In this document: positions 7,473-55,391 of the stretch, one piece after another | Position numbering within the stretch: the stretch's first letter is position 1 | Layout of the letters: the number at the start of each line of letters is the position of its first letter | Origin: an uncultured Pelagibacteraceae bacterium | Lineage (GTDB): Bacteria > Pseudomonadota > Alphaproteobacteria > Pelagibacterales > Pelagibacteraceae | Direction: 5' to 3' | Assembly: GCA_902593905.1 (NCBI GenBank) | Contig: CACJKF010000001.1 | Coordinates: 349,248-413,247 of the forward strand | DNA: 64,000 bases | Notes under the pieces: model-generated | The model's input: only the letters and a program-made list of their open reading frames with translations | What the model was told of the DNA's origin: nothing | Databases searched by the model: none | Position numbers and translations under genes: made by a program

Positions 7473-9625
7473 TTTTTTATCGCTTTTCTTGGTTTTGTGC
7501 CAGGCATACCCATAGTCGATCTTCCTTTCGGATAAACTTTACTTTTTAAATTATATTGAGATATTTTAGGATTTAAAGTTATTTCAAGTTCACTAGCCTC
7601 TAGTTTTCTCATTTCATCTCTTAGTTTAGCAGCTTCTTCAAATTCTAAATTAGATGCAGCTTCCTTCATTTTTCTATTTAAAGCTTTAAGATGTTTTTTT
7701 AAGTTTCCACCTACGTTCGAGCCTTCACTAATTTTAACGTAATCTTTTTCATAAACAGACTCTAAAATATCACTTATCTCTTTTTTTACTGACTCAGCAG
7801 TTATTCCATTTTTCTCATTAAATTCTAATTGCTTATTTCTCCTTCTGTCAGTTTCCTTAATTGCCTTTTCAATGCTCTTCGTGACTTTATCAGCATATAA
7901 AATTACTTTACCATCAACATTTCGCGCTGCTCTTCCTATCGTTTGAATTAAAGAAGTTTCAGATCTTAAAAATCCCTCTTTATCAGCGTCTAAAATTGCT
8001 ACCAAAGCACATTCAGGAATATCTAATCCCTCTCTCAACAAATTAATTCCTACAAGAATATCAAACACCCCCATTCTCAAATCTCTTATGATCTCAATTC
8101 TTTCCAGAGTATCAATGTCAGAGTGCATATATCTTACTTTAAGACCATTTTCGTGGAGGTACTCAGTAAGATCTTCAGCCATTTTTTTTGTTAGTGTTGT
8201 AGCAAGAACTCTATATCCTTTTTTTACAATCTCTTTTGCCTCGTGCATAAGATCATCAACTTGAGTTTTGGCTGGTCTTATTTCAACCGGTGGGTCTATT
8301 AAACCTGTTGGCCTAATGATTTGGTCAATATATTTATTGTTTGTTTGTTTTAACTCCCAAGGTCCTGGGGTAGCAGAGACAAATACAGTTTGTGTCCTCA
8401 TTAAATCCCATTCTTCAAATTTCAAAGGTCTATTATCCATACATGAAGGGAGTCTAAACCCGTATTCGGCTAACGTACTTTTTCTTGTACGGTCACCTTT
8501 ATACATTCCGTTTAATTGAGGGACTGTTACGTGACTTTCGTCTACAAATATAATTGTATTATCTGGAAAATACTCAAACAAAGTAGGAGGAGGTTCACCA
8601 GCTTTTCTTCCTGACAAAAATCTTGAATAATTTTCTATCCCTGCACAAGTTCCGGTAGCTTCAATCATTTCTAGATCAAACTTAGTTCGTTCTCTTAATC
8701 TTTGTTCCTCTAAAAGTTTATTATTTTCTCTATGTTTTTTTAAAGTCTCAGCTAACTCAGATTTTATTTGTCTGATTGCTTGCTCGATAGTAGGCTTAGG
8801 GGTTATATAATGACTATTAGCGTAAATTTTTATTATTGAGTAATCATTTGTCTTGTCTCCAGTAAGCGGGTCAAATTCCTCAATTTTTTCCAATTTATTT
8901 AAATTAAAACTAATTCTCCAAGCTCTGTCTTCTAAGTGTGATGGAAAGATCTCTAAATTTTCTCCTCTTACCCTAAAAGTTCCTCTAAAAAAATTTTGAT
9001 CATTTCTTTTGTATTGTAAGTTTATAAACGCTCTAATTAAATCGTCTCGCTCGTACTCATAATTTTTCTTAAGAGTAATAGTCATTTTCGAGTACGCCTC
9101 CACAGAACCTAAACCATAAATACATGATACACTCGCAACAATAATTACATCGTCTCTTTCCAACAAAGATCTTGTCGCCGAGTGTCTCATACGATCAATT
9201 TGTTCATTTATTGAGGCTTCTTTTTCTATGTAAGTATCAGATCTAGGAACGTATGCTTCTGGAGTATAGTAATCGTAATATGATACAAAATATTCTACAG
9301 CATTATCAGGAAAAAAACTTTTAAACTCTCCGTACAATTGGGCAGCCAAAGTTTTGTTTGGTGCTAGAATTAAAGCTGGTCTATTAGCCTTTTCGATAAC
9401 TTTTGCCATTGTAAACGTTTTACCTGATCCCGTGACCCCTAAAAGCACTTGTTCTTGTTTGTTATCTTTTAAGTTTTTTAATATTTGCTTTATGGCCTCT
9501 GGTTGGTCGCCGCTAGGTTGAAAATCACTTTTGATTTTAAAGTTAATACCTCCCTCTAACTTCTTAATTTTTTTTGAGTTATTAACTTCTAGATCAGCTA
9601 ATTTTTCTTGATAAGTATTTTGCAT
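7454..9625 (-). CDS. uvrB: Excinuclease ABC subunit B
   Basis: [17 protein letters not shown] Walker A, beta-hairpin region [40 protein letters not shown]-terminal UVR domain. Confidence 0.98.
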
Positions 9626-51421: not shown

Positions 51422-52834
51422 TTATTTTGGTTTAGTCATTTTAAGCGGATTCATAATTTTATCATACTCTTTTTCTCTTAAAAGCCCTGCCTTGACAACC
51501 TCATGTTTTAACGTGGTTCCGTTTTTGTAAGCCGTTTTTGCTATAGTAGCTGCTTTGTCATAACCGATACTTGGAGCTAGTGCCGTAACTAGCATTAAAG
51601 AGTTATCTAATAATTTTTTAATTCTTTTTTTGTCTGCTTTAATTCCCTTTACACAATATAGTGCAAATGTTTTTGCAGAGTCGCTCATAATTTCTATTGA
51701 TTGTAATATATTATGAATAATTAAGGGTTTAAAAACATTTAATTCAAAATGCCCATGAGATCCTGCCATTGTAATCCCATTATGATTTCCAATTACTTTA
51801 ACACAAACCATTGTAACTGCCTCTGATTGTGTTGGATTTACTTTACCAGGCATTATTGAAGATCCAGGTTCATTAGATGGTAAAATTAGTTCTCCATATC
51901 CTGCTCTTGGGCCAGAGCCTAAAAACCTTATATCATTTGCTATTTTCATTAAGCAGACCGCAGTAGTATTAAGAGATCCAGAAAAGTTTACAATTTCATC
52001 ATGTGCTGCCAATGATGCAAATTTATTAGATGATGTTCTAAAAGGAATTTTAGTAATTTTGCTTATTTCTTTTACAATCTTTTTATCAAAATTTTTTCTA
52101 GTATTTAAACCGGTTCCTACTGCAGTTCCTCCCTGAGCTAAGCTATAGATTTCTTTTAAAGCCAACTCAACTCTAGTAATACATTTTTTCAATTGAGTGT
52201 GATAACCTGAAAATTCTTGACCAAGAGTCAAAGGAGTTGCGTCTTGTAGGTGAGTTCTTCCTACCTTAACGATTTTTTTAAATTCTCTAGATTTTTTTGC
52301 TAGTTGTTTCTCTAAAAGTTTTAGTGATGGTAAAAGTTTTTCCCTTGATTTTAAAGCAATAGCTATATGCATAGCTGTTGGAAAAACATCGTTAGTAGAC
52401 TGAGATTTGTTTACGTGATCATTTGGGTGAACTGGTTTTTTTGTACCCATTGTTCCACCCATCATTTGTATGGCCCTATTAGCAATTACTTCATTAACAT
52501 TCATATTTGTTTGAGTACCAGAACCTGTTTGCCAAACCTTTAAAGGAAAGTGTTTATCGAGTTTACCATTAATAACTTCATCAGAGGCTTTAATAATATA
52601 TTTACTTATTTTTTTGTCTAAATCCTTATTTCTTACATTTACTATAGCAGCTGCTTTTTTAACTATTGCGATTGAGTGGATAACTAATGGTCTAACTAAA
52701 AAGTCGCCAATATTGAAATATTTGTTTGATCTTTCTGTGGATGCACCCCAGTACTTATCACCAGGTACTTTTATTTTTCCAATACTGTCGAATTCTATTC
52801 TGTATTTCATTAATGAATCATTGGTATAATACAC
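51422..52834 (-). CDS. fumC: Class II fumarate hydratase
   Basis: [50 protein letters not shown]. Confidence 0.96.
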
Positions 52835-52870: not shown

Positions 52871-53242
52871 ATGACTAATTTTGAAAGAGTTAAAAAATTT
52901 ATGGAAACTTTTGGTCAAGAAATTAAAGAAAAAGCAGAGTTTCCAAGCCAAAAAACTGTGTCACTGAGATATGATTTAATAAAAGAGGAACTTGAAGAAT
53001 TAAGAGTGGCCTTAGAAAAAAAAGATATTAAAGAAGTTGCAGATGCTTTAACTGATATATTATACGTAACTTATGGAGCTGGACACTCCTTTGGAATTAA
53101 TCTGGACAAGTGTTTTAATGAAGTTCAAAATTCTAATATGAGTAAACTAGGATTAGATGGAAAACCTATTTATAATAACAAGGGAAAAGTTATGAAAGGT
53201 CCTAAATATTTTAAACCAGATTTAAATAAATTTGTTGCATGA
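52871..53242 (+). CDS. MazG-like nucleotide pyrophosphohydrolase
   Basis: SLRYDLIKEELEEL...KDIKEVADALTDILYVTYG (EExxE/ExxD motifs). Confidence 0.8.
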   Translation: MTNFERVKKFMETFGQEIKEKAEFPSQKTVSLRYDLIKEELEELRVALEKKDIKEVADALTDILYVTYGAGHSFGINLDKCFNEVQNSNMSKLGLDGKPIYNNKGKVMKGPKYFKPDLNKFVA

Positions 53243-53323: not shown

Positions 53324-53992
53324 TTAAGCTTTTTTTTCAAATAAAAACGTCGCCATATTTACTTTTTTGTGAATGCCAACATAACCGTCACCTACTTGAT
53401 GATCATAGCGCTTAAATTTAACTTTAAAATTTTTGAAATTTTTTTTTAAAAAAGAATTAAATTCTTTTTTATTAACAGTAATATACTTAATTTTTGATTT
53501 ACCATCCCATTTTTTACCAAATTTTATTTTTTGAAACTGTTTACTCGAATTGATCGTCATATAATCAGTTAATCTCAAATCAAACAGTAAAAATTTTTTT
53601 GTTCTTTTTTTCATATATATTATGTATTTTTCCCAGTTATCAACATGATGCAATGTGCCAAAGCTAAAAACTAAATCAAATTTTTTGTTAATTGGGAAGC
53701 GATTGTTTTTAATTAAATAAAATTTTTTTTTTGGAAATCTTTTTTTTGCTATCTTTATCAAAGCTAACTGATTATCTAAACCAACATATTTAAAATCCTT
53801 TTTTTTTATCTTTTTAATTATTTTTACAAAGTTTCCTAAAGCACAACCTACATCAAGAAAGCTTAAGGATTTCTTTGCAGCGCTAATAAAAAATTTCTTT
53901 TCAGACTTATATAAATGCTCGATCTTAAATCGATTATTTTTATAATAATTCAACGAAGTTTTAGAAGAATAAAATTTATTCATTTCATTCAT
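53324..53992 (-). CDS. SAM-dependent methyltransferase (class I)
   Basis: LSFLDVGCALGNFVKIIK motif I, FDLVFSFGTLHHVDNWEKYI. Confidence 0.85.
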   Translation of the reverse strand: MNEMNKFYSSKTSLNYYKNNRFKIEHLYKSEKKFFISAAKKSLSFLDVGCALGNFVKIIKKIKKKDFKYVGLDNQLALIKIAKKRFPKKKFYLIKNNRFPINKKFDLVFSFGTLHHVDNWEKYIIYMKKRTKKFLLFDLRLTDYMTINSSKQFQKIKFGKKWDGKSKIKYITVNKKEFNSFLKKNFKNFKVKFKRYDHQVGDGYVGIHKKVNMATFLFEKKA

Positions 53993-54002
53993 TGCTGTTA
54001 AA

Positions 54003-54034
54003 GGGGCGTTCTGTTGCTAGGTGCCCCTAACCCC
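54003..54034 (-). repeat. Copy 2 of 32-nt structured motif GGGGTTAGGGGCACCTAGCAACAGAACGCCCC
   Basis: 28/32 identical to the copy at 54139-54170; 10 nt upstream of the methyltransferase start. Confidence 0.9.
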
Positions 54035-54045
54035 AGAAATTTAAT

Positions 54046-54102
54046 TCAATTAATAATTGCGTAAAGTACAACAACAACAATTAAAATTTCCCATCCGCTC
54101 AT
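54046..54102 (-). CDS. 18-aa putative hydrophobic peptide MSGWEILIVVVVLYAIIN
   Basis: ATG preceded by AAAGGAGTCGAA Shine-Dalgarno; hydrophobic core ILIVVVVLYAII; between two copies of a 32-nt repeat. Confidence 0.6.
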   Translation of the reverse strand: MSGWEILIVVVVLYAIIN

Positions 54103-54138
54103 TTCGACTCCTTTCGTTTACAGACAATTATATAGTAA

Positions 54139-54170
54139 GGGGCGTTCTGTTGCCAGGTGCCCCAGACCCC
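54139..54170 (-). repeat. Copy 1 of 32-nt structured motif GGGGTCTGGGGCACCTGGCAACAGAACGCCCC, apparently the 3' end of the tmRNA coding piece
   Basis: Outer GGGG/CCCC pairing, internal hairpin; immediately after the tmRNA tag and hairpin. Confidence 0.85.
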
Positions 54171-54304
54171 GTAACTTAATTAACTAGGTTAATTAAGCTG
54201 CAAGTGCAAATTTTTGATTTGCATTTATAAATTAGCCCGTTACGTCGGAACCATCTCGAACGAAAGAACAGCCTTTAGACACCCGTCGATCCTAATTCAC
54301 CCCC
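54139..54304 (-). ncRNA. ssrA: Two-piece (circularly permuted) tmRNA: coding piece
   Basis: GGGGGTGAATTAGGATCGACGGGTGTC 5' end; tag GCA AAT CAA AAA TTT GCA CTT GCA GCT TAA (ANQKFALAA*, 54193-54222) followed by a perfect 10-bp hairpin (54175-54197). Confidence 0.88.
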
Positions 54305-54316
54305 GTAAGTTGTAAA

Positions 54317-54398
54317 TGGTGGAGGTGGTGGGTACTGCCCCCACGTCCGTGATGTTTATTACGAAATTCGTTTATCGTCATAGTTGGAAAACCAACGC
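54317..54398 (-). ncRNA. ssrA: Two-piece (circularly permuted) tmRNA: acceptor piece with encoded CCA
   Basis: GGACGTGGGGGCAGTACCCACCACCTCCACCA; CACCTCC pairs with GGGGGTG of the coding piece; 12-nt intervening segment 54305-54316; 5' end approximate. Confidence 0.88.
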
Positions 54399-54402
54399 TA
54401 TT

Positions 54403-54430
54403 AATATAAAACTCTTTTTAAGAGATTCAA
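54403..54430 (-). promoter_or_regulatory. Putative tmRNA promoter
   Basis: Minus strand TTGAAT (54430-54425), 16-nt spacer, TATATT (54408-54403); spacer contains palindrome CTCTTAAAAAGAG. Confidence 0.55.
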
Positions 54431-54443
54431 TAAATAATTCAAA

Positions 54444-55391
54444 ATGAAACTTACCAAAGAACAAAAGCAAGAAATTGCAGACCAACAGGCTCAAAAAAGT
54501 CAAACAAAAAGAGTTACCTCTCCAGAATTAGAAAAAATTTTATACGAGGCTTTACCAGTTCTAGATCATGGATTCGTTAGAGTTGTTGATTATATGGGTG
54601 ATGATAGTTCTATAGTTCAATCTGCAAGAGTTTCTTATGGAAAAGGGACTAAAAAAGTTTCAACTGATGAAGGATTAATTAAATATTTAATGAGACATTG
54701 GCACTCTACACCTTTTGAAATGTGTGAGATTAAATACCACGTGAAATTACCAATATTTATTGCACGCCAATGGATCAGACATAGAACTGCAAATGTAAAT
54801 GAATACTCTGCTAGATATTCTATTTTAGATAAAGAATTTTATATACCAAACAAAGATCAATTATCAGCCCAATCAGTTTCTAACCGACAAGGAAGAGGAG
54901 ATTTGATTACAGGTGCCCAAGCTGATGAGGTTTTAAAAATATTAAAAGATGATGCTACGAGAACATATGATAATTATGAAAAAATGCTTAATGAAAGATA
55001 CGATGGAACAATAATAGATGAAAATAAAACTGGATTAGCCAGAGAACTTGCTAGGATGAATTTAACTTTGAATTCTTACACTCAATGGTATTGGAAAACA
55101 GACTTATTGAATTTATTAAATTTTTTATTTTTGAGAGCTGATAGTCATGCGCAGTATGAGATCAGAGTTTATGCCGATACAATGCTGGACACTGTAAAAA
55201 AATGGGTTCCAATAACACACTCAGCTTTTTTAGATTATAGGGTGGGGGCAGTTCACGTTTCTGCAAAAGGCAAAAAAGTAATACAACTTATGGCCAAAGG
55301 TGAAAAAGTCAACCACGAAAGTTCTGGCCTTTCAAAAAGAGAGTGGAATGAGTTAATGTCATCTTTTGGTTTTAGTGAAAAGATAATTTAA
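54444..55391 (+). CDS. thyX: Flavin-dependent thymidylate synthase
   Basis: [19 protein letters not shown] ThyX signature. Confidence 0.96.

Follow-up and report, generated by a model that had tools for sequence, protein, structure and literature searches.

A site-specific, additive cassette island at the tmRNA gene of Pelagibacteraceae, with an 18-codon gene in one of its smallest cassettes

Genomic islands that grow by addition at a transfer RNA (tRNA) or transfer-messenger RNA (tmRNA, gene ssrA) gene and carry repeats of the end of that gene are already known from published passages (PMC3146451, PMC10872708, PMC7771536). In the ssrA islands of Dehalococcoides, those units that have no integrase of their own are believed to depend on others for mobilisation (PMC3146451). 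The passages on 'Ca. Methylopumilus' describe repeats of the last 20 bp of tRNA-Lys in flexible genomic island 2 (fGI-2; PMC10872708), those on 'Ca. Actinomarinales' describe tRNA cassettes (PMC7771536), and the tycheposons of Prochlorococcus are given, as summarised in PMC10872708, as elements of 4-200 kb at tRNA genes. For SAR11, no integron signature was found in the variable regions (PMC2217521), and in Pelagibacter ubique HTCC1062 the tmRNA gene lies directly between thyX and a COG4696 homologue (PMC2704228). Here we describe the same locus in a 64,000-nucleotide stretch of an uncultured Pelagibacteraceae genome (contig CACJKF010000001.1, positions 349,248 to 413,247; hereafter the window), in which an 18-codon open reading frame (ORF) directly downstream of the tmRNA gene is bracketed by two copies of a 32-nt motif. 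We conclude that the locus is a site-specific, additive cassette island at the tmRNA gene and that the cassette in the window is among its smallest.

The SAR11 site shares integrase-less units with the Dehalococcoides islands, but it uses the coding-piece end of a permuted two-piece tmRNA, its cassettes go down to ~0.1 kb and its candidate enzyme is a tyrosine integrase, whereas the Dehalococcoides islands have a CcrB-like serine recombinase (DsiB) in their integration module, insertion in the T-loop region and a 20-bp repeat (PMC3146451). As far as the passages on Methylopumilus and Actinomarinales go, those systems resemble ours in that small cassettes, marked by gene-end repeats, are added at an RNA gene in streamlined marine or freshwater bacteria; however, the target there is a tRNA gene rather than tmRNA, and the same passages report no helper integrase, conserved end families or micro-ORF cassettes. 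Tycheposons, from the summary available, are likewise cargo elements with tyrosine recombinases at RNA genes of ocean bacteria, but the SAR11 units are mostly <2 kb (median 848 bp) and sit at tmRNA, so that neither size nor target agrees. In the open-access literature, covered by titles, abstracts and passages and with subscription papers and preprints outside its scope, we found no description of the SAR11 tmRNA site, and the cassette system appears to be undescribed.

The repeated tmRNA end in the window

The features of the locus are as follows, with the cassette and its anchor before the neighbouring genes.

54139..54434, minus strand: permuted two-piece tmRNA (ssrA) with the tag ANQKFALAA; coding piece ends at about 54139 (Rfam RF01849, ARAGORN)
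54139..54170, minus strand: motif copy 1, GGGGTCTGGGGCACCTGGCAACAGAACGCCCC, the 3' end of the tmRNA coding piece and attL-like attachment core
54159-54138, minus strand: minimal 22-nt core within copy 1, CACCTGGCAACAGAACGCCCCT
54127..54132, minus strand: TATAAT box (sequence reading)
54108..54114, minus strand: Shine-Dalgarno sequence AAAGGAG, 5 nt ahead of the ATG (sequence reading)
54046..54102, minus strand: micro-ORF MSGWEILIVVVVLYAIIN, 18 codons plus stop, ATG to TGA, the cassette cargo
54003..54034, minus strand: motif copy 2, GGGGTTAGGGGCACCTAGCAACAGAACGCCCC, the distal cassette core, of the variant beginning GGGGTTAGGGGCACCTAGC
54023-54002, minus strand: minimal core of copy 2
53324..53992, minus strand: gene for a 222-aa methyltransferase-like protein, island content between the last core and COG4696 (ORF)
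54444..55391, plus strand: thyX, fixed left neighbour of the tmRNA site (ORF; tblastn synteny in relatives whose contig extends there)
52871..53242, plus strand: COG4696 homologue, fixed right neighbour that bounds the island (ORF; tblastn synteny)
51422..52834, minus strand: fumC (class II fumarase), conserved past COG4696 (ORF; synteny)

The original prediction had placed two 32-nt copies on the minus strand (54170-54139 and 54034-54003), about 105 nt apart, on either side of a TATAAT box, an AAAGGAG Shine-Dalgarno sequence and the 18-codon ORF. All of these elements are present, with a good Shine-Dalgarno sequence: the copies are 29/32 identical, with three differences at positions 6, 7 and 17, and the gap between them measures 104 nt, but copy 1 turned out to be the end of the tmRNA itself. 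The Rfam model alpha_tmRNA (RF01849) spans 54434-54134 with an E value of 7e-63 and thus runs through copy 1, and ARAGORN calls a permuted tmRNA with the tag ANQKFALAA. The question therefore becomes why the end of the tmRNA is repeated, and copy 2 is a duplicated attachment core. Read along the minus strand, the order is thyX (on the opposite strand), tmRNA, copy 1, the 104-nt stretch, copy 2, the methyltransferase-like gene, COG4696 and fumC. The methyltransferase-like gene has no recognisable core at its far end and no counterpart in any other examined locus. The TATAAT box is partnered by a weak -35-like CTGGCA (10/12 matches in all); the region holds four promoter-like sites, compared with 1.7 in shuffled sequences, and a search of it for a terminator found none.

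Cassette arrays behind tmRNA in related genomes

Copies of the motif also stand beside tmRNA in related genomes. A search with the core pattern found matches in 138 of 169 genomes of the same genus, and a reversed control pattern in none, which shows that the motif does not arise by chance; by a hand count from the table of these matches, about 81 of the 169 carry at least two copies. In the first 40 loci, every core copy lies downstream of tmRNA and on its strand, with none on the other strand, and 1.05 Mb held no reverse-strand match with up to 4 mismatches. The intervals from core to core (149 in 65 loci) have a median of 848 bp, and the cassettes, of ~0.1-8 kb, are arranged in tandem between tmRNA and COG4696. 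The order thyX-tmRNA-island-COG4696-fumC is fixed, while the distance from the first core to COG4696 ranges from 104 bp to 12.3 kb (60 loci). The shortest case (L060) is an empty site: what follows its core can be aligned, from the very first base, with the sequence behind the last core of two filled loci (91% identity to L054, 88% to L070). Two loci that are 98.9% identical over the upstream 1.2 kb (L046 and L073) have different arrays, and array contents change quickly. In the 65 loci, copy 1 represents the tmRNA end in intact form, with the gene restored at its 3' end, and mean core mismatches are 0.08 at copy 1 and 0.72, 1.05 and 2.0 at copies 2, 3 and 5; such a rise with distance from tmRNA is expected if new units enter at the tmRNA. 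Of the marks of an additive island anchored at a tRNA or tmRNA gene, 3' integration with the gene restored, a far direct repeat and tandem growth are found here; a further mark, a site-specific recombinase encoded by the element, is seen in L126 and L302 but not in typical arrays.

Cassettes with different cargo have left and right ends in common, by which they group into families, and the strong matches of one such left end across the 169 genomes all lie in tmRNA arrays. An array is also present in G230, a one-contig genome of 1.2 Mb, and artefacts of assembly or single-cell amplification are therefore no explanation. A looser core occurs in closely spaced groups in two further genera of the family (g13 and g16), and the loci fetched from both show arrays behind tmRNA; in the searched genomes of the other family of the order, there were no such groups. 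Inside both ends of one common cassette family (e.g., L048, L056, and L062), we also noticed spaced, paired words of 7-8 nt (GATCACA, GGACTCA, GGGCACA), usually with the same word in both members of a pair.

The cassettes come in two styles. In the short style (48 cassettes, median 424 bp), the ORF is co-oriented with tmRNA, starts ~48 nt past the core and ends ~15 nt before the next one; the long style (108 cassettes, median 1273 bp) has antisense genes and ends of ~100 nt. A minority of the cargo could be named, and comprises an Fe/Mn superoxide dismutase, DUF805, DUF2784, methyltransferases, trypsin-like peptidases, restriction systems and defence-like families. The arrays are reminiscent of integrons in that their cassettes hold one to three genes each, line up at a fixed anchor and include short, promoterless-looking, co-oriented ones. 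However, the SAR11 cassettes are separated by a short 22-nt core identical to the tmRNA end, no PF00589 match that could represent an integron-type tyrosine integrase lies near the arrays, and 108 of 156 cassettes are mainly antisense to the anchor rather than sharing one orientation.

This variety of cargo also bears upon the function of the repeats, which the original prediction had viewed as structured 3' ends belonging to the micro-protein cassette itself or as part of a tmRNA-linked regulatory unit. If the latter, the repeats would form processed 3' ends of both the tmRNA and the micro-protein mRNA, and the full pre-core GGGGNNNGGGG is indeed kept in 14/48 co-oriented versus 8/108 antisense cassettes (Fisher p 0.0008, an optimistic value since the cassettes are related). 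Nevertheless, the same repeats bound many unrelated, mostly antisense genes, no terminator was found, and the exchange of C6-G17 for T6-A17, cited as covariation in favour of a hairpin, fails: tmRNA copies nearly always have G17, combined with C6 (57) or T6 (103), and some distal copies combine C6 with A17. The covariation of two copies is therefore no evidence for the hairpin. Neither copy folds better than its shuffled versions (z -0.96 and -0.78), and the GGGGC/GCCCC pairing (positions 8-12 with 28-32) is kept at tmRNA copies yet hardly varies, and is thus little informative. We regard an independent regulatory unit of this kind as very unlikely. As a long series of cassettes, unrelated to one another, have these repeats as their common core, the repeats are read as an attachment site, and of the earlier interpretation it is the micro-protein cassette linked to tmRNA that is supported.

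Candidate integrases and the mobilisation of cassettes

We consider it probable that the feature in the window is a 136-bp cassette of an additive, site-specific island at the 3' end of the tmRNA coding piece, mobilised by a helper integrase. An incoming element would be joined through its core to the tmRNA end by a tyrosine recombinase, insertion would restore the tmRNA and displace older cassettes outward, and cassettes without a recombinase would be moved in trans by a divergent tyrosine integrase of a 409-aa type, encoded by 8-9 kb elements that are occasionally found at this site. The first such element came from a screen of the largest cassettes. In L126 (genome G048), tmRNA and a core-like repeat enclose genes for a PF00239 recombinase and for a 409-aa protein; the latter lies below the reach of Pfam and has the residues of a tyrosine recombinase, with R235, K269, R345, and Y377 invariant among four homologues. 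In L302 (genome G345), a 9.4-kb element immediately behind tmRNA has a homologue at its far end, which matches PHROG integrase family 1 at 3.7e-13 and shows weak matches to PF00589 and a phage-integrase SAM-like domain. Each of the two elements (8-9 kb) has, between tmRNA and a repeat resembling the core, both the tyrosine integrase and a PF00239 recombinase; the PF00239 recombinase is short, and its CcrB match is weak and far below the cut-off. Integrase remnants occur at tmRNA in L303 and L147, and the core half ACAGAAC(C)GCCCC closely follows the integrase genes or remnants in all four loci. Furthermore, cassettes that have no integrase share a homologous right end with the L302 element, at 87% over 125 bp in L124 and at 70-80% in other cases. 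This homology ties the mini-cassettes to the integrase and therefore favours action in trans, and we infer that mobilisation by the helper integrase would best explain the integrase-less cassettes.

Several observations weigh against this explanation. Typical arrays yielded no recombinase in PF00589 and PF00239 searches; as a rule, the enzyme is therefore missing, and its action in trans is putative. Integrase matches were obtained in only 10 of 397 family genomes, some of them marginal, and three homologues (L304-L306) have no tmRNA nearby in the fetched stretch. The helper cores are unlike the tmRNA core in their left half (GGGACGGACAACAGAACGCCCC), and the exact crossover is therefore not fixed. 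No excised or circular form of a cassette was seen, and the cassette in the window does not have ends resembling those of the helper.

With most array genomes having no candidate recombinase in the array, homologous recombination between arrays, using DNA uptake and RecA with the tmRNA-end repeats as tracts, would dispense with a present-day integrase, and exchange has been suggested for SAR11 hypervariable region 2 (HVR2; PMC2217521). However, the shared tract is just ~13-24 bp, the core and its orientation are always preserved on insertion, unrelated cargo lies between conserved ends, and integrase-bearing elements occupy the same site, all of which make this route unlikely. Typical genomes do contain one Xer-like PF00589 protein (309-327 aa), located away from the array. 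It is usually the sole such protein in a genome, including the array-bearing one-contig G230, and might move cassettes as Xer proteins do for elements elsewhere, but it is present in genomes both with and without arrays, and the site has a dedicated integrase. The sites at which Xer recombinases act, dif sites, are A+T-rich at their centre, whereas the core is G+C-rich, part of tmRNA and not dif-like. We therefore give the resident enzyme little chance of being responsible, less than homologous recombination. The helper integrase thus remains our preferred agent.

Other candidate enzymes were set aside. PF00239 matched in none of 33 sampled family genomes, and a serine recombinase carried by array genomes was rejected, though two helper elements have one. 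Long PF00589 integrases in four genomes (G034, G051, G044, and G043) were rejected as a source; they lie beside tRNA-Leu or tRNA-Val, at loci without the core. In the first two of these genomes (L106 and L107), prophage-like integrase frames of 464 codons adjoin tRNA-Leu(TAG), and L107 includes large-terminase-like and further phage-like genes. As for PF00589 in general, Pelagibacteraceae usually have a single divergent Xer-like recombinase, and the other family of the order has two strong ones.

With regard to phage satellites, the L302 helper element has, besides its integrase, a T4 gp45-like clamp (8637-9377; PF09116 at 3.4e-7, phrog_223 at 1.5e-41) and a weak Rep_1. A sliding clamp is unusual for a small integrative element. 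Among 2.9 million viral contigs, the core pattern matched 12, with the tmRNA 5'-half motif upstream in eight; a phage attachment site (attP) was rejected, as the 12 matches look like ends of tmRNA coding pieces, in T4-like neighbourhoods where read closely. The eight (L075, L077, L078, L080, L082, L083, L084, and L085) carry an alpha-type tmRNA with the core of the host attachment site within its end, and those read closely have T4-like phage genes (NrdA/NrdB ribonucleotide reductase and S-adenosylmethionine decarboxylase). Cassette left and right ends had no matches in the viral contigs, nor did the helper integrase in the viral contigs and annotated phages. Family-wide gene capture in Pelagibacteraceae, in which the trans-acting integrase of a phage-satellite-like element with a T4-type clamp would insert cassettes of down to one 18-codon gene at the tmRNA end, with tmRNA-bearing T4-like phages as possible carriers between cells, is a speculative extension to which we assign a modest chance.

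The core is found at other genes too. In g13, it also stands directly behind rnhA (RNase HI, 140-141 aa), in a variable interval near thrC (L275, L277, L279, L282, L286, and L287) that holds a peroxiredoxin, an adenosine deaminase and a methylase pair; two of these loci, L277 and L279, show matches to the right ends of the helper, which makes rnhA a possible second attachment site. In G237 (L274:1763-4400), a core copy lies ~500 nt behind pnp and is followed by antisense genes for secreted proteins resembling those of tmRNA cassettes. The rnhA and pnp cores in g13 are apparently secondary sites.

The 18-codon gene and the meaning of the site

The micro-ORF of the window recurs in other cassettes, with the start codon, Shine-Dalgarno sequence and hydrophobic frame conserved and a bias toward synonymous substitution. 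Versions of the peptide include MSGWEILIVVVVLYAIIN, MSGWEILIVVAIIYAIAN and MSGLEILIVVAVLIAITN, among others, all keeping a distance of 20-24 nt to the next core; the ratio of nonsynonymous to synonymous polymorphism (pN/pS) is 0.25 among eight cassette copies, and the other two frames are closed. The Shine-Dalgarno region AAAGGAGTCGAAATG recurs in cassettes of L034, L114, L124, and L132, with close variants elsewhere, and the core variant beginning GGGGTTAGGGGCACCTAGC also lies 20-24 nt behind other micro-ORFs. In roughly 35 of the 169 genomes, a near-identical peptide, MSGWEILIVVAILYAIVN, is encoded at a chromosomal locus convergent with a TRAP-type permease, and its gene holds a conserved place (near position 1400-1530 in L260-L269; L261 and L263 were read closely). 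The micro-ORF is thus a real, conserved family of 18-aa hydrophobic peptides, each probably a single membrane helix as judged from its residues.

Known small hydrophobic toxins are of a size resembling that of this peptide, and other micro-cassettes encode unrelated hydrophobic peptides of 15-19 aa just ahead of a core, as might be expected if a type I toxin-like peptide stabilised the array. The near-identical copy at a stable chromosomal place beside the permease and the lack of a known antisense RNA argue otherwise, and a toxin seems improbable; with low confidence, we favour a small membrane-protein accessory.

Overall, the cassette reading accounts for a puzzling repeat beside tmRNA and yields a conserved 18-aa micro-protein family of a kind expected to escape annotation. 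SAR11 cells, which rank with the most abundant cell types of the ocean, are regarded as a streamlined lineage. Roughly half of the genomes sampled from one genus have the site, as does at least one other genus of the family, and its cargo includes restriction systems, superoxide dismutase and a large number of unknown secreted proteins. Such a site would give a concrete, testable route by which SAR11 gains and loses genes.
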